From the NCBI RefSeq assembly GCF_029763755.1, contig NZ_JARUVM010000007.1, positions 1 to 64,000 of the forward strand: DNA of 64,000 bases, read 5' to 3'. The notes beneath the pieces are model-generated. The model did no database searches. It was not told the DNA's origin and worked only from the letters and a program-made list of their open reading frames with translations. The position numbers were made by a program, and so were the translations under genes. This DNA comes from Luteimonas sp. 8-5. Lineage in GTDB: Bacteria > Pseudomonadota > Gammaproteobacteria > Xanthomonadales > Xanthomonadaceae. Positions 52,301-57,639 of this stretch are shown piece after piece; within the stretch, counting starts at the first letter, position 1; each line of letters begins with the position of its first letter.

Positions 52301-53010
52301 TGCAGCCGATCACCGCCGGCCTGGCGCTTGCCCGCAATCCCGACAACAGCGACCTGTGGGTGTTCTTCGGCACTGGCCGTTTCATGTCGGTCGACGACCT
52401 GACCAGCACCAGCGTACAGACGCTGTACGGCATCAAGGACGGTGGGAGTGCAGTGAAGGGCCGGACTTCCGACACCGAGTTCGGCGACCTGGTCAAGCGC
52501 GAGATCGTTGCGGTCAGCGACGACAAGCGCGTACGTGCCTTCGACGAGTGGAAGCGCACCCTGGAAGACGGAAAGAAGGGCTGGTTCCTCGACCTGGACG
52601 ATCCCTACAAGGGTGAGCGGGTCGTGAGCGGCCTGCGCGTCCTGGGCACCACCCTGATCGCGTCCAGCATCGTGCCGGGCACGGGTTCGTCCGCGTGCGA
52701 CGCCGGTGGCACGGGCTACATCAACGCGCTGGATGCGTTCACCGGCACCAGTCCGTCCCAGGCGTTCTTCGACGTAAACAAGGATGGCGTGGTCAACGAC
52801 GCGGACAAGATCAAGACGACGATCGACGGCAAGGAAGTGTACCTGCCGGCCGGTTCGCTCGACCTGGGCATCGGCATGCCGACCCGTGCGACCATCATCG
52901 ACAAGCTGCTGGTAGTCGGTGGCTCCGGTGGCGGCCTTGGCACGGTCACCATCGATCCACCGACGTTGGGCGCTCGCCGCGTCTCCTGGCGCGAAATCCT
53001 GAGGGATTGA
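49336..53010 (+). CDS. pilY1: Type IV pilus tip adhesin PilY1 with inserted PPC-like domain
   Basis: This 1224-residue exported protein has a signal peptide ending APVSAATS near residue 38. A von Willebrand A-like N-terminal half has a MIDAS start (LDDSGSMT, residues ~65-70) and is split by a segment at ~195-295 that looks like a bacterial pre-peptidase C-terminal domain (GDADLYLRNGS, then NPASGTWWIGVYN). The C-terminal beta-propeller has two calcium-loop-like motifs: DDNGDGAVDYIYAGDLQGNL near 938, and DVNKDGVVNDAD at 1146-1157. PilY1 promotes pilus extension, adhesion and surface sensing. ATG at 49336 follows GAGGAGCC. Confidence 0.9.
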   Translation: MANRKMKRHSRHPAWAKHALVVACACLSTLLGAPVSAATSDVAFPAVPLQSGTPYPAPNIMFILDDSGSMTYAAMPKDISSFSGLDDDIWDKSYVHNTLYYNPYTEYQPWKKADNSRYTGGTDYSNAYSDSDLVGGSTTNLGSSTQTFFVPKANATDLDDEDQYDKYQIRYEDGSLRVVMTGAEVRESWDNRDIDDREWWYGSIEVPAGATSLIVQMSGTDEDSCGRRCTRPNGDADLYLRNGSKPTTSSYDHADTDSGNNDTITVDNPASGTWWIGVYNSNRDYTADNIDIDAVATDRQFKTPTGRSEADEMTNFATWYSYHRTRMKVAKFAASEAFSQLGDNYRVGYDSIWNRKQGVSSNDSSAPTSGPAYPIPTGVDEGLFKGANRTKWFEFLHKAEGNNGTPLHDALWRAGEYYESSAPWKSGTAAADISCRLSFSILTTDGYWNSRSQTDWRGNYDSSKYGANADGSDGSRIDRPAGAVGGSYTYKAKRPYKDDRAGTLGDVAMHFWKRDLRSTLDNNVPTSSADEAFWQHMVTFGVAIGLAGELDPEDDLVDLTSGAKEWPDPRLSEMSGSASYASRIDDLYHATVNSRGAFVSASDPARFVNGLLSALTTISERPGSASNVTANSTSFTSDTRVYQASYTSGTWTGELTAYVATSAGIQGAPAWKASQGIPTDYTKRKIWTWDKGGGEGAAFPTAAQKTALDVSSRSGSAATADENAAYIKGDRSNEPSKDGKLRARSSLLGDIVNSSPIYVTDSGALFVGANDGMLHAFDGSTGKELFAYVPGGINLTNLASLSDPQYGQTVTHKYFVDGPITVSAKSQTPGKNYLVGALGRGGRGVFALDVTTPSSFDEDDVLWESSSDSDMGMVLGDPLVVTLNDADRTKAVVVSNGVNSPDGSATLFVLKLSDGSVIKEIEAGTGGGNGLFAPRGWDDNGDGAVDYIYAGDLQGNLWKFDLSADKSSDWEVANSGDPMYKARDADGNVQPITAGLALARNPDNSDLWVFFGTGRFMSVDDLTSTSVQTLYGIKDGGSAVKGRTSDTEFGDLVKREIVAVSDDKRVRAFDEWKRTLEDGKKGWFLDLDDPYKGERVVSGLRVLGTTLIASSIVPGTGSSACDAGGTGYINALDAFTGTSPSQAFFDVNKDGVVNDADKIKTTIDGKEVYLPAGSLDLGIGMPTRATIIDKLLVVGGSGGGLGTVTIDPPTLGARRVSWREILRD

Positions 53011-53012
53011 CG

Positions 53013-53429
53013 ATGAATCGCAAGATGCATGCACGATCGATGGGCGGCAGCAGGGGTTTCTCGCTGCTGGAACTGATGATCGCGGTGACGGTGCTCGGCA
53101 TCGTCACCGCCGCCGCGGTGGCCACGTACGGCAATTCGATGATCAAGACCCGGCGTGGCACCGCCGAGGCCTGCCTGATGGAGGCGGCGCAGTTCATGGA
53201 GCGAAACTACACGCTCAACATGACCTACGACGTGGACTTCCCGGAGCTGGCTTGCGCCGATGAACTCGACGGCTTCTACGAGTTCGATTTCATCGGCGTT
53301 CCCGACGCCACGACCTACGTGGTGGCCGCCACGCCGGAAGGCGACCAGGCCAAGGACACCCAGTGCGGGACGCTCTCGATCGACCAGGCCGGGGCGAAGA
53401 ACGCCAACAACATCGATGCCTGCTGGTAA
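53013..53429 (+). CDS. pilE: Type IV pilin PilE
   Basis: This 138-residue prepilin has a 15-residue leader ending GGSRG and mature start FSLLELMIAVTVLGIVTAAA with Glu5. The C-terminal domain has four cysteines, including the last-but-one residue (DACW), consistent with a D-region disulfide. It starts 2 bases after pilY1 and is the last gene of the operon. In this position PilE is usually a minor, not the major, pilin. Confidence 0.9.
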   Translation: MNRKMHARSMGGSRGFSLLELMIAVTVLGIVTAAAVATYGNSMIKTRRGTAEACLMEAAQFMERNYTLNMTYDVDFPELACADELDGFYEFDFIGVPDATTYVVAATPEGDQAKDTQCGTLSIDQAGAKNANNIDACW

Positions 53430-53475
53430 TCCGAAATCCGCAAACGGTTCCAGCGTTTTTGTCGGCCTTTTCCGA

Positions 53476-53505
53476 TTGACAGCGCAAATCGCGCGCCGCT
53501 AATGT
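53476..53505 (+). promoter_or_regulatory. Strong sigma70-type promoter of the non-coding RNA
   Basis: TTGACA (53476-53481), an 18-base spacer and TAATGT (53500-53505) form the best promoter seen in the window. It is placed about 50 bases after the pilE stop and drives no open reading frame. Confidence 0.75.
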
Positions 53506-53511
53506 GACCGC

Positions 53512-53783
53512 CGTCGCATCGATCCGCCCTCTCGGACGTTTGCGGGAGTAGCCGGTCGGCCCGTGGGAAAGGTTGCCGGATTACAGGCGTCCGGAGAGAG
53601 CGCCGATACACAAGGCAGGATGCCCGGCCGCGTTCCAGCCAAGGCTGGCGCGACCAGATCGGGGTACAACTCCATAAGCGGAAGCAGGGCAGGACGCCCA
53701 TGGGCAGGATGCCACCGGCAGGGAAGCCACGAGACTTTCCGGTGTTCGGAATTACCCGGTCCTCGAGAGAGGGCCGGGTTTTT
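53512..53783 (+). ncRNA. Structured sRNA, candidate CsrA/RsmA-sequestering RNA
   Basis: A transcript of about 270 bases is bounded by a consensus promoter and an intrinsic terminator, with no convincing reading frame inside. Three short hairpins present an AGGAY pentaloop on a GGC/GCC stem (53614-53624, 53687-53699, 53703-53713), each containing CAGGATG or CAGGACG, the repeat known from E. coli CsrB. In all I count eleven GGA triplets, roughly twice the chance number for this composition. Other structure includes CCAGCC-AA-GGCTGG at 53636-53649 and a long-range GGACG/CGTCC pairing near the 5' end. It does not look like RNase P RNA, tmRNA, 6S or SRP RNA. Titration of RsmA is inferred. Confidence 0.65.
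53754..53783 (+). terminator. Intrinsic terminator of the sRNA
   Basis: ACCCGG-T-CCTC, a GAGA tetraloop and GAGG-G-CCGGGT form an 11-bp stem with one wobble pair, followed by TTTTT. Confidence 0.85.
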
Positions 53784-53785
53784 CT

Positions 53786-53807
53786 TCGCGGCTTCCGCCG
53801 CTCCTAC
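53786..53807. repeat. GTAG repeat copy at the ExoD-gene stop
   Basis: On the minus strand this reads GTAGGAGCGGCGGAAGCCGC, identical to the left arm at 35805. Its TAG is the stop codon of the ExoD-like gene. It directly follows the sRNA terminator. Confidence 0.85.
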
Positions 53808-54409
53808 AGCAGCAGGTCGAGGGCGGGTGCCACGGCGGCGGCCAGCTTGCCCGAGGCCAGGCCGAAGCTCGCCACGGTGGCACTTCCGCCGACCCAGGCC
53901 ACCAGCATCAGCGCGCCGTCGCGTTCCAGCATCGCCAGCGCGAACAGCAGCAGGATGGCGCCGAACAGGTAGTTGGTGAGCGGGATCGGCAGCGCAAGCA
54001 GCAGGCCAAGCAACACCAGCAGCAGGCCGGTGAACAGGCGCGACGCCCGGTAGTGCAGCACCTCCGGCAGGCGCGGGCGCACCAGGCGCTCCAGGCGGGC
54101 AAGCCACGGCGACACCATGCGATCGAAACGGACCAGCGTATGCCGTTGCGGGCCGCGCGAGGCGATCGAGCGCGGCAGCCAGGGCCGGCGCCGGCCCCAC
54201 AGCAGTTGCAGGCCGATCAGCACCACGAGAGGCCCGCTGATCGCGCCGCCGATCGGCACCGGGATGAAGGCCGGCAGCGTGGCGATGAACAGCAACATGC
54301 CGTAAGCGCGCCGGCCCATGCCGGCCAGCAGCAACCGCAAGGGCAGGGTTTCGCCGGGGTCGCCAGCGGTGAAGCCGTCGAGCAGCGACCTGAGGCCGCG
54401 CTCAGGCAT
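53804..54409 (-). CDS. ExoD-family membrane protein
   Basis: This 201-residue protein has four or so hydrophobic segments and the ExoD pattern (LIGLQLLWGRRRPWLP, then FDRMVSPWLARLERLVRPRL). ExoD was first described as affecting exopolysaccharide and alkali tolerance in Sinorhizobium; its mechanism is unknown. The start overlaps the stop of the CBS-domain gene by 8 bases, so it is translated with it. It ends within a GTAG repeat. Confidence 0.85.
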   Translation of the reverse strand: MPERGLRSLLDGFTAGDPGETLPLRLLLAGMGRRAYGMLLFIATLPAFIPVPIGGAISGPLVVLIGLQLLWGRRRPWLPRSIASRGPQRHTLVRFDRMVSPWLARLERLVRPRLPEVLHYRASRLFTGLLLVLLGLLLALPIPLTNYLFGAILLLFALAMLERDGALMLVAWVGGSATVASFGLASGKLAAAVAPALDLLL

Positions 54410-55712
54410 CGTCGTCGCGGTCCTCGACTGCGACGCGCTGCAGCAGCAGCTTGTCGATCCGCGGGCCGTCCAGGTCGACCACCTCGATGCGCCAGCCCTC
54501 GAATTCGAAGTGCTCGCCGGCGTTGGGGATGCGGCCGAAGTTGGCGATCACCATGCCGGCCGCGGTGTGGTAGTCGTATTCGTCCTGGCCGGGCAGGGCG
54601 CCGCCGCCGAGCAGCTCGCGCAGGTCGTCGACCGGAAGCGAGCCGTCCACCAGCAACGAGCCGTCGTCGCGCGTCACCACCAGCGCTTCGGCGTCGGACG
54701 ATTCGCCGGACTGCACCCGGCCCAGGACCGCGCCCATCAGGTCGTTGACCGTGACCATGCCGGTGACGTCGCCGTACTCGTCGACCACCAGGGCCAGCGA
54801 CTGCTGCTCCTCGCGGAAGATCTCCAGCAGCTTCAGCGCATGCGTGGACTCGGACACGAATACCGCCGGGCGCAGGGTGGCGAACAGGTCCGGCAGGCCC
54901 TGGGCGAGGTCGTCGATGAGCGACTTGACCTCGAGCACGCCGAGCACGTCCGAGTCGCTGTCGCGATAGACCGGATAGCGGGAATAGGGCGTCTCGCGCA
55001 TGGCCTCGAGGTTCTCCTCGATGCTGGCGCCGGCGTCGAGCCAGGTGATCCGGACCCGCGGGGTCATCAGGCTGTCGGCGGTGCGGTCGCCCAGGCGCAT
55101 GACCCGCTGCATCATGTTGCGTTCGTCGGCGTCGATCACGCCCTGTTCGTGGCTTTCGCTCACCAGGGAGCGGATCTCCTCCTCGGTGATGGCATTGCGG
55201 GCGTCGTCGCGGATGCCCAGCAGGCGCAGCACGCCGCGGTTGATCGCACCCAGGACGTACACGATCGGGCGCGCCACGGTGGCCAGGCCGTGCAGCGGTA
55301 TCGCGACCTTGCAGGCGATGCCCTCGGCATTGGTCAGCGCCAGGCGCTTGGGGATCAGCTCGCCGAAGATCACCTGGCCGGCAGTGATCAGGCCCACCGC
55401 GGTGCCGATGCCGATGCCGGTCACGTACTCGCTGGCCCCGGGCCAGATGTCGCCGAGCCAGCCGGCGATGTTGGCGCCGATCGCCTCGCCGCCGAGGACG
55501 CCGGTGAGGATGCCGATCAGGGTGATGCCCACCTGGACCGTGGACAGCAGGTTGTCGGGGTGCTCGGCCAGCGCCAGTGCGGTGCGCGCGCCGCGGCTGT
55601 GCTCGGCCATCTGCCGCAACCGGGACTTGCGGGAGGTCATCAGCGCCATTTCCGACAGGGCGAAAAAGGCATTGAGGACGATCAGGGCAGCGACGATCAG
55701 CAGTTCCAGCAC
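54402..55712 (-). CDS. CNNM/HlyC-CorC family membrane protein
   Basis: This 436-residue protein has a DUF21/CNNM membrane domain (residues ~1-190, with LNAFFALSEMALMTSRKSRL), a CBS pair (VRITWLDAGASIEENLEAM to DVTGMVTVNDLMGAVLG) and a CorC/HlyC C-terminal domain (EYDYHTAAGMVIANFGRIP). It is thought to export or sense magnesium. The start is GTG at 55712, placing the first helix at the N-terminus (VLELLIVAALIVLNAFF). The longer frame upstream is antisense to the phosphate genes and is not used. Confidence 0.88.
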   Translation of the reverse strand: MLELLIVAALIVLNAFFALSEMALMTSRKSRLRQMAEHSRGARTALALAEHPDNLLSTVQVGITLIGILTGVLGGEAIGANIAGWLGDIWPGASEYVTGIGIGTAVGLITAGQVIFGELIPKRLALTNAEGIACKVAIPLHGLATVARPIVYVLGAINRGVLRLLGIRDDARNAITEEEIRSLVSESHEQGVIDADERNMMQRVMRLGDRTADSLMTPRVRITWLDAGASIEENLEAMRETPYSRYPVYRDSDSDVLGVLEVKSLIDDLAQGLPDLFATLRPAVFVSESTHALKLLEIFREEQQSLALVVDEYGDVTGMVTVNDLMGAVLGRVQSGESSDAEALVVTRDDGSLLVDGSLPVDDLRELLGGGALPGQDEYDYHTAAGMVIANFGRIPNAGEHFEFEGWRIEVVDLDGPRIDKLLLQRVAVEDRDDDA

Positions 55713-55871
55713 GCAGGGTTCCAGGGCCACGGAAGAGGGCACGAAGCTCGCGCCCGGATCATAACAGCCGCCCCGCAAAGCCCAGCGACGCGGCAAGACT
55801 ACGCGGAAGGGGCCTTGAACCGTCATAATTGACCCCTTCGCCAGGATTCGCGCCAAGGGGCCAGCTCGCTC

Positions 55872-56498
55872 ATGTTCTCCCTCCAGACCATTTTCGGGCA
55901 GGGCAAGCAGTTCTATGCCCTGCTGGACGAGGCGGCCGACGCCGCCTACGACAGCACCAAGGCCCTCCACGCCATGCTCCGCGAGCCGGGCAGGGTCCAC
56001 GCCCTGGACGCCTTCAAGCTGGCCCGCCAGCGCGAGCGCGACGCCTCCGAGAAGATCAGCCAGGCCCTGGTCGACAGCTTCATCACCCCGATCGAGCGCG
56101 AGGACATCGAGGCCCTGGCCTCGGCCCTGTACAAGATCCCCAAACAGGTCGAGCGCTTCGCCGACCGCTATGCCCTGGCCCGCCAGCGCCTGGAGGGCAT
56201 CGACTTCGCCCCGCGCGCGGCGATGCTGGAAAAGGCCGCCGCGGTGGTCGTGGAGATGGTGAAGGAGCTGCCGCGCCTGCGCCTGGAGCCGATGAAGCAG
56301 CTCAGCGACAAGCTGCGCGTGCTGGAGAACGAGGCCGACCGGCTGATCCTGGAGCTGTACCGGGACATCTATTCCGGGCGCCTGGAGGCCGCGGAGATGT
56401 TCCTGCTCAAGGAGTTCTTCGAGATCCTCGAGAAGGCGATCGACCGCTGCCGCGAGGCCGGCGTGGTTGCCTACGAAATCGCGCTGAAGAACAGCTAG
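55872..56498 (+). CDS. DUF47/PhoU-like phosphate transport accessory protein
   Basis: This 208-residue all-helical cytoplasmic protein of the TIGR00153/DUF47 family has SFITPIEREDIEALASALYK and NEADRLILELYRDIYSG. It almost always precedes a PiT transporter, as here with 10 bases between, and is thought to regulate it. CATAAT at 55824-55829 is a candidate -10. Confidence 0.9.
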   Translation: MFSLQTIFGQGKQFYALLDEAADAAYDSTKALHAMLREPGRVHALDAFKLARQRERDASEKISQALVDSFITPIEREDIEALASALYKIPKQVERFADRYALARQRLEGIDFAPRAAMLEKAAAVVVEMVKELPRLRLEPMKQLSDKLRVLENEADRLILELYRDIYSGRLEAAEMFLLKEFFEILEKAIDRCREAGVVAYEIALKNS

Positions 56499-56508
56499 GC
56501 CCGACCGC

Positions 56509-57639
56509 ATGGATTCGATGCTGGCCCTGGTCCTGGTCGTGGTGCTCGCGGCCCTCGTGTTCGAGTTCATCAACGGCTTCCACGACACCGCCAACTCCAT
56601 CGCCACGGTCGTGGCCACCAAGGTGCTGTCGCCAGGCCAGGCGGTGATCCTGGCGGCGACCATGAACCTGATCGGCGCGTTCATGGGAACGGCGGTGGCC
56701 AAGACCATCTCCTCCGGACTGGTCGACACCGAGGTAGTGAACGTCACTTCGCAGGTGCTGCTGTGCGCGCTGGGCGGCGGCATCACCTGGAACCTGATCA
56801 CCTGGTGGCTGGGCCTGCCGTCCTCGTCCTCGCACGCGCTGATCGGCGGCCTGTGCGGCGCCGCCCTGGCCGCGGCGCACAACGACTGGAACGCGCTGAT
56901 CTGGTCGCAGGAAGTGGGCAGCTGGACCAAGAACGGCGGACTGCTGTGGAAGGTGCTCGTGCCGATGATCAGCTCGCCGATCGCCGGTTTCACCCTCGGC
57001 GTGCTGATCATGGTCCTGCTGTATTCGCTGATCGCCGGATTGCGGCGCTTCGGCGGCCGCCTGCTGTCGCCGCTGTCGCGGCCGCGCTGGGTCAATGCCT
57101 TCTTCGGCAAGGCGCAACTGGTCTCGGCGGGGTACATGGGCTATGCCCACGGCACCAACGACGCGCAGAAGACCATGGGCATCATCGCCCTGACCGTGTT
57201 CGCCGCGCAGAGCAACGGCGTCCTCGACGACCTGCCGGGCTGGCTGTCGTTCCTGCATCCGAACGGCGACGAGAACGGCATCGATCCGTGGATCATCACC
57301 ACCTGTGCGCTGGTGATGGCGGCGGGCACCGCCGCCGGCGGCTGGCGCATCATCAAGACGCTGGGCCACAAGATGGTCAAGCTGCACCCGATCGACGGTT
57401 TCGCGGCCGAGTCGGCGTCTGCCACGATCCTGGTGACGGCCGCGCACTTCGGCATGCCGGTCTCGACCACGCACAGCATCTCCACCGCGATCATGGGCGT
57501 GGGTTTCGCCAAGAACCCGCGCGCGCTGAAGATCACCGTGATCGAGCGGATCATCTGGGCCTGGATCCTGACGATCCCGGCGGCGGGCGGCATCGCCTAT
57601 CTCCTGCTGCGCCTGTTCGAGCTCCTCGGCTGGGCGTGA
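56509..57639 (+). CDS. pitA: Low-affinity inorganic phosphate transporter PiT
   Basis: This 376-residue inner-membrane transporter has the duplicated PiT signature: NGFHDTANSIATVVATK near the N-terminus and YAHGTNDAQKTMGIIAL in the middle. About ten membrane segments are seen. It imports metal-phosphate complexes with protons. It forms an operon with the DUF47 gene. Confidence 0.93.
   Translation: MDSMLALVLVVVLAALVFEFINGFHDTANSIATVVATKVLSPGQAVILAATMNLIGAFMGTAVAKTISSGLVDTEVVNVTSQVLLCALGGGITWNLITWWLGLPSSSSHALIGGLCGAALAAAHNDWNALIWSQEVGSWTKNGGLLWKVLVPMISSPIAGFTLGVLIMVLLYSLIAGLRRFGGRLLSPLSRPRWVNAFFGKAQLVSAGYMGYAHGTNDAQKTMGIIALTVFAAQSNGVLDDLPGWLSFLHPNGDENGIDPWIITTCALVMAAGTAAGGWRIIKTLGHKMVKLHPIDGFAAESASATILVTAAHFGMPVSTTHSISTAIMGVGFAKNPRALKITVIERIIWAWILTIPAAGGIAYLLLRLFELLGWA

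Follow-up and report, generated by a model that had tools for sequence, protein, structure and literature searches.

A candidate CsrA/RsmA-sequestering small RNA at a type IV pilin locus of Luteimonas sp. 8-5 and its reciprocal occurrence with comEA 3' hairpin arrays

The pilin-exoD interval

The window considered here is the first 64,000 nt (64 kb) of contig NZ_JARUVM010000007.1 of Luteimonas sp. 8-5, forward strand (genome G000 below, G001 to G008 being the other eight genomes of its genus). Late in it a gene for a PilY1 protein precedes one for a type IV minor pilin (Pfam), and between the latter and exoD lies a predicted small RNA (sRNA) gene. Its features are as follows, with orthologue counts that include the window RNA itself.

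53013..53429, plus strand: neighbouring gene for a type IV minor pilin (ComP_DUS and N_methyl, Pfam)
53440..53451, plus strand: palindrome-like element GCAAACGGTTCC, pattern AAnCGnTTnC, a putative regulator site
53476..53481, plus strand: -35 hexamer TTGACA, identical in four of four orthologues
53500..53505, plus strand: -10 hexamer TAATGT, the same in three of four orthologues (TAAGGT in G001)
53513..53783, plus strand: predicted sRNA, about 271 nt, its start inferred to lie 7 nt past the -10 hexamer
53523..53536, plus strand: 5' hairpin TCCG-CCCTCT-CGGA with a C-rich loop, its pairs kept with two-sided changes in the four-sequence alignment
53586..53604, plus strand: well-conserved hairpin GGCG/CGCC around CCGGAGAG
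53614..53624, plus strand: CsrA-type hairpin 1, GGCAGGATGCC
53687..53699, plus strand: CsrA-type hairpin 2, GGGCAGGACGCCC
53703..53713, plus strand: CsrA-type hairpin 3, GGCAGGATGCC
53717..53728, plus strand: CsrA-type hairpin 4, GGCAGGGAAGCC, weaker
53754..53783, plus strand: intrinsic terminator, kept in four of four orthologues
53804..54409, minus strand: neighbouring gene for ExoD (Pfam), convergent with the sRNA

The first-pass annotation had read a promoter TTGACA-18-TAATGT, a non-coding transcript of about 270 nt and a terminator with an 11-bp stem. The promoter is present at 53476-53505 with its 18-nt spacer, and its hexamers recur in the orthologues, as does the terminator (11 pairs and a 4-nt loop at 53754-53779, then a T run). 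A generic sigma-70 promoter scan listed nothing in 53000-54500 because TAATGT agrees with TATAAT at just three of six positions, and terminator-like sites in the region are in no excess (one, with 1.2 expected in shuffles). Since both hexamers and the terminator are kept in the alignment, TTGACA and the terminator in all four sequences, the borders of the gene are likely right. The predicted transcript has no reading frame common to the orthologues; a coding gene was rejected, with one frame of 34 codons in G000, three nested ones of 44, 43 and 19 codons in G001 and, in G004 and G005, nothing that reaches 15 codons. A leader or riboswitch was rejected too, given the terminator at the end of the RNA and the convergent orientation of the gene that follows.

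What might control the promoter? The GacA box consensus is TGTAAGN6CTTACA, and the 60 nt upstream of the four orthologues hold no exact copy of it. The top GacA-like candidate among the regulators of G000 reaches 202 bits, short of the 280-bit cut-off, and tblastn gave no uvrC within about 1.5 kb of the GacA-like gene in nine loci, three of them incomplete. The AAnCGnTTnC element, a motif defined post hoc after inspection of the sequences, lies 36, 26, 36 and 36 nt ahead of TTGACA in G000, G001, G004 and G005, respectively, and hints at another regulator; the 10-nt displacement of the element in G001 roughly equals a turn of the helix.

CsrA-type hairpins and chance expectation

CAGGAYG is the repeat of CsrB. 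Three near-identical hairpins with AGGAT or AGGAC had been pointed out, together with three CAGGA(T/C)G heptamers and eight further GGA triplets, and the letters bear this out: GGCAGGAYGCC stands at 53614, 53688 and 53703, three copies inside 100 nt, and 277 nt hold 11 GGA. A fourth hairpin, at 53717-53728, had been overlooked. Genome-wide (2.5-Mb assembly, both strands) there are 14 copies of GGCAGGAYGCC, three of them in the sRNA, and ten of a reversed control pattern; a genome-wide repeat was rejected, the other 11 copies being scattered and blastn finding the gene in single copy.

Against 5000 dinucleotide shuffles of the 277 nt, the four CAn?GGAnG sites of G000 compare with a mean of 0.39 (p 0.0004), and any GGCAGGAYGCC at all is met at p 0.0012. 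The GGA total is not unusual, since 11 against 8.2 gives p 0.12 and A(N)GGA gives p 0.47; other 277-nt stretches of the window reach 13 GGA on the plus and 15 on the minus strand. Per 277 nt, CAn?GGAnG attains its window-wide maximum of four at the sRNA locus, with two the most on the minus strand.

The 277 nt have a predicted fold of -124.3 kcal/mol (z -2.29) in which five of the 11 GGA are unpaired with a probability above 0.8, where shuffles average 0.5 and none of 200 reaches five. Taken singly, G001, G004 and G005 show no significant exposure, 13%, 7.5% and 13% of shuffles, respectively, equalling theirs. Not every site lies in a hairpin loop in the predicted full-length ensemble: that at 53692 does, those at 53618 and 53707 are open in other loops, and that at 53722, in the fourth hairpin, is mostly paired. 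In isolation, CAGGATG is predicted to fold into a GGA triloop on a GGCA/TGCC stem and CAGGACG into a pentaloop.

A candidate partner is at hand. A single CsrA was found in the genome, and it shares 47 of 52 aligned residues with that of E. coli (PF02599 at 92 bits, NF002469 and TIGR00202 above cut-off), and its gene follows an alaS-like gene. In the accessible text of PMC7366521, CsrA dimers recognise short hairpins with an exposed GGA, and RNAs bearing several of these titrate the protein. Because multi-hairpin RNAs act in this way, and the CsrA here is so close to that of E. coli, titration is the most likely action of the window RNA: CsrA dimers would bind its hairpins and be kept off mRNAs until the RNA decays.

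Orthologues within the genus

The search set was 395 genomes of the family, drawn from a larger group, nine of them from the genus of the window. Convincing orthologues, the window RNA included, are present in four of the nine and in none of the other 386. Blastn with the RNA picked up G005 and G004, and inspection of the pilin-exoD gap added G001, to which a Luteimonas lumbrici locus (L002) is identical across the whole pilin-RNA-exoD stretch; taxonomy places lumbrici in Cognatiluteimonas, Lysobacteraceae, and the species belongs to the genus of the window. Seven of the 395 genomes had blastn matches, those outside the genus being mere pieces of 35-46 nt, and plasmid records had none. In the five remaining genus genomes exoD has different neighbours, with no orthologue seen there. 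A covariance search across Xanthomonadaceae downstream of pilE had been suggested. A model based on the four orthologues, covering the first 152 positions and run with Infernal's stricter filters, scores 122-139 bits in its source genomes, by construction. With E values of 1 or less it matches 91 of the 395 genomes, none beyond the four above 22 bits. Among 30 matches taken as loci, the 26 besides the four have no leading TTGACA and at most two sites per 350 nt. The expected family-wide occurrence is thus replaced by four convincing genomes in one genus.

Site content divides the orthologues into three rich in CAn?GGAnG (G000 with four, G004 and G005 with six each, the latter two despite 69-78% identity of their blastn-aligned pieces) and one poor (G001, four GGA and one site). 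GGA columns are not clearly better conserved than others, four of 11 against 54 of 245 other triplets, with CGG at seven of 12.

From G001, with its gene and few sites, it follows that the RNA may originally have served a different purpose. Could it be that the RNA acts by base pairing, its 5' half (the C-rich loop and the CCGGAGAG hairpin) pairing with mRNAs and the CAGGAYG hairpins being secondary or, as in G001, absent? Conservation is highest in the 5' half (mean column identity 71%, 66% for the whole RNA), 11 of 55 predicted pairs have changed on both sides, a small sample from four sequences that includes the 5' hairpin, and Xanthomonas sX13 is characterised by C-rich loops. Such a role, though, leaves aside the clusters of sites in three of four orthologues, the exposed GGA of G000 and the reciprocity with comEA arrays described below, and we regard it as unlikely.

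The position of the gene bears on two further readings. That the RNA directly follows the pilus operon is true of G000, G001 and G005, where the gene comes after the pilin gene; in G004 it lies ahead of exoD with a divergent minor pilin gene upstream. Might the stretch be simply the last, terminator-bearing part of the pilus operon, with motifs due to chance and no separate function? The interval from the pilin stop (53429) to the sRNA promoter has no listed terminator-like site, and transcripts of the pilin gene may therefore run on to 53783. With a promoter conserved in four of four, a G004 gene that is not downstream of a pilin gene and a site enrichment at p 0.0004, this is extremely improbable. 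A CsrA-bound element acting in cis, for instance to stabilise or time the pilin mRNA, rather than a sponge acting in trans, would also suit the three genomes in which the gene follows the pilin gene, and has a parallel in X. campestris, where the accessible part of PMC7694677 describes an RsmA-bound mRNA, with the comEA 3'UTR, that is less stable without rsmA. The RNA's own promoter and the G004 arrangement weigh against such an element, which we judge very unlikely.

Beyond exoD the next gene is CNNM/CBS-like (named by eye; 54402-57137 of the window, and in loci L043-L051). It comes in two types within the genus, about 79-89% identical within a type and 68-74% between types, and conflicts with other genes in its grouping.

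comEA arrays and a possible turnover of sponges

A search of the 395 genomes for clustered CAGGAYG, three in tight series, led to comEA. At least 145 of the 395 have the pattern, though a reversed control pattern is also in many, and it misses G000 because the copies there are too far apart. Of 22 such loci inspected, eight lie directly after comEA, in three other genera, and the others for the most part appear coding or were left out. In these eight (L117, L120, L123, L124, L125, L129, L130 and L131) hairpin arrays of CAGGAYG/CAGGGAnG stand directly 3' of comEA.

Within the genus of the window, six of nine genomes carry an array in the gap between comEA and hutD, which is then 159-266 nt long (four sites in G001, two in G002, four in G003, four in G006, three in G007 and five in G008). 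In G000, G004 and G005 the gap is 18-75 nt with no array, the lone site counted in G004 overlapping the hutD start. These three are exactly the genomes with the site-rich window RNA, and site-poor G001 retains its comEA array. Two sets of three among nine would coincide by chance once in 84 times if the genomes were independent. They are not, for a comEA plus hutD tree has a split, supported at 98, with all four RNA-bearing genomes to one side of it, and the reciprocal pattern in the nine genomes probably rests on one or two events. Other trees are of less help: that of exoD lacks resolution, that of the CNNM gene conflicts and a four-gene tree sets G005 apart. The last is not taken for a species tree, given the two diverged types of the CNNM gene.

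How widespread is the array? One genome was taken per genus for 51 of 53 other genera, two having given no comEA match. At least two sites within 300 nt past the comEA stop were present in 29 of 42 genera and in three of nine more, 32 of 51 in all, and on the opposite strand of the same 300 nt in none of 51. The sites of G046, G057 and G058 are far out and probably belong to the gene downstream, so that 29 of 51 remain (for G037 only 194 nt downstream of comEA were readable). Predicted RsmU-like arrays after comEA therefore occur beyond Xanthomonas, to which they had been published as limited, and, being widespread in the family yet missing in many genera, were probably lost several times.

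Two further loci deserve mention. On the reverse complement of L107 (G043), at about 1376-1592, is a candidate stand-alone sRNA with TTGCAT-17-TATGAT, three CAGGACG and a terminator, which carries GGGCAGGACGCCC twice; G043 has just one hairpin after comEA, and L107 is a possible second sponge replacement. On that of L099 (G313), at about 1490-1570, GGGCAGGACGCCC, GGCAGGATGCC and CCGGGCAGGATGCCGG follow in series right after a terminator-like hairpin, possibly as a CsrA-bound leader.

To which known RNAs does the window RNA compare? An Rfam scan of the window gave just a tRNA elsewhere, with rsmX below threshold (12.3 bits where 56 are needed, E 7.5), and orthologue loci L044, L046 and L047 gave none; a known RNA was accordingly rejected, and a match to another class, which would have told against the first reading, did not appear beyond weak sub-threshold ones. 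CsrB/CsrC and RsmX/RsmY/RsmZ are likewise stand-alone genes with repeated GGA hairpins, whereas the window RNA has neither an Rfam match nor a GacA box that could be found, and four sites where the accessible text of PMC7366521 gives CsrB and CsrC 18 and 11.

The nearest neighbour in kind is RsmU (sRX061) of Xanthomonas campestris, 117 and 77 nt, which according to the accessible portions of PMC7694677 is processed from the comEA mRNA 3'UTR, vanished upon deletion of the comEA promoter and was reported only in Xanthomonas, a genus in which no CsrB-type homologue was found. The two share a bacterial family, GGA hairpins, an intrinsic terminator and presumed RsmA titration. RsmU, as that text has it, is a comEA mRNA product, while the window RNA of about 271 nt has its own promoter at a pilin/exoD locus and is rich in sites only in genomes without a comEA array; comEA of G000 is on another contig and has no array. 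In the same portions of PMC7694677, RsmU with all four predicted GGA changed still binds RsmA and still gives its overexpression phenotype, and its loss left the traits tested unchanged; counting GGA is thus an imperfect guide, and cells may be able to do without a sponge. Predicted 3'UTR-derived RsmA-type sRNAs of Vibrio fischeri, as described in the accessible text of PMC5568370, resemble the window RNA in repeats with exposed GGA and predicted RsmA binding; they are from another organism and 3'UTRs, known by prediction only, and are likened by description. Neither the window RNA nor, outside Xanthomonas, a comEA-linked sponge came up in searches of the open-licence literature. With no Rfam match and a place outside the comEA 3'UTR, the window RNA is probably best filed by function, as a CsrA/RsmA-sequestering sRNA, and kept out of CsrB, RsmX/Y/Z and RsmU.

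The sponge reading offered at the outset is the best supported, by enriched and exposed CAn?GGAnG, promoter and terminator, the presence of CsrA and the reciprocity with comEA arrays, though shorn of family-wide occurrence and constant pilus adjacency. Judged from sequence, it is probable, with good but not full confidence, that the window RNA is a stand-alone sRNA titrating CsrA/RsmA that replaced an RsmU-type sponge of the comEA 3'UTR in G000, G004 and G005. That the site-rich RNA is confined to relatives lacking the other sponge suggests that one may have replaced another; going by this distribution, the window RNA would have taken over from the lost comEA 3'UTR sponge, and G001, with a comEA array and a site-poor RNA, is a possible intermediate. 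Both types adjoin genes for type IV pili and DNA uptake, here a ComP_DUS pilin and elsewhere comEA, a location that may tie CsrA titration to competence.

Whether CsrA sponges of the family turn over by replacement we hold to be evenly balanced: a comEA 3'UTR sponge, common and probably ancestral, would have been deleted in one Cognatiluteimonas clade as a stand-alone sRNA unrelated to it, at another pilus/DNA-uptake locus, acquired CsrA hairpins and took over, with G001 as the intermediate. In Xanthomonas there is one described RsmA sponge, RsmU, thought by its authors to be limited to the genus (as stated in the accessible part of PMC7694677). Thanks to the reciprocal pattern, a comparison of close relatives can put sponge replacement to the test. 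If the replacement is true, the Csr/Rsm system of a large family that includes plant pathogens would be run by interchangeable sponge RNAs, of which the comEA-linked one is common.
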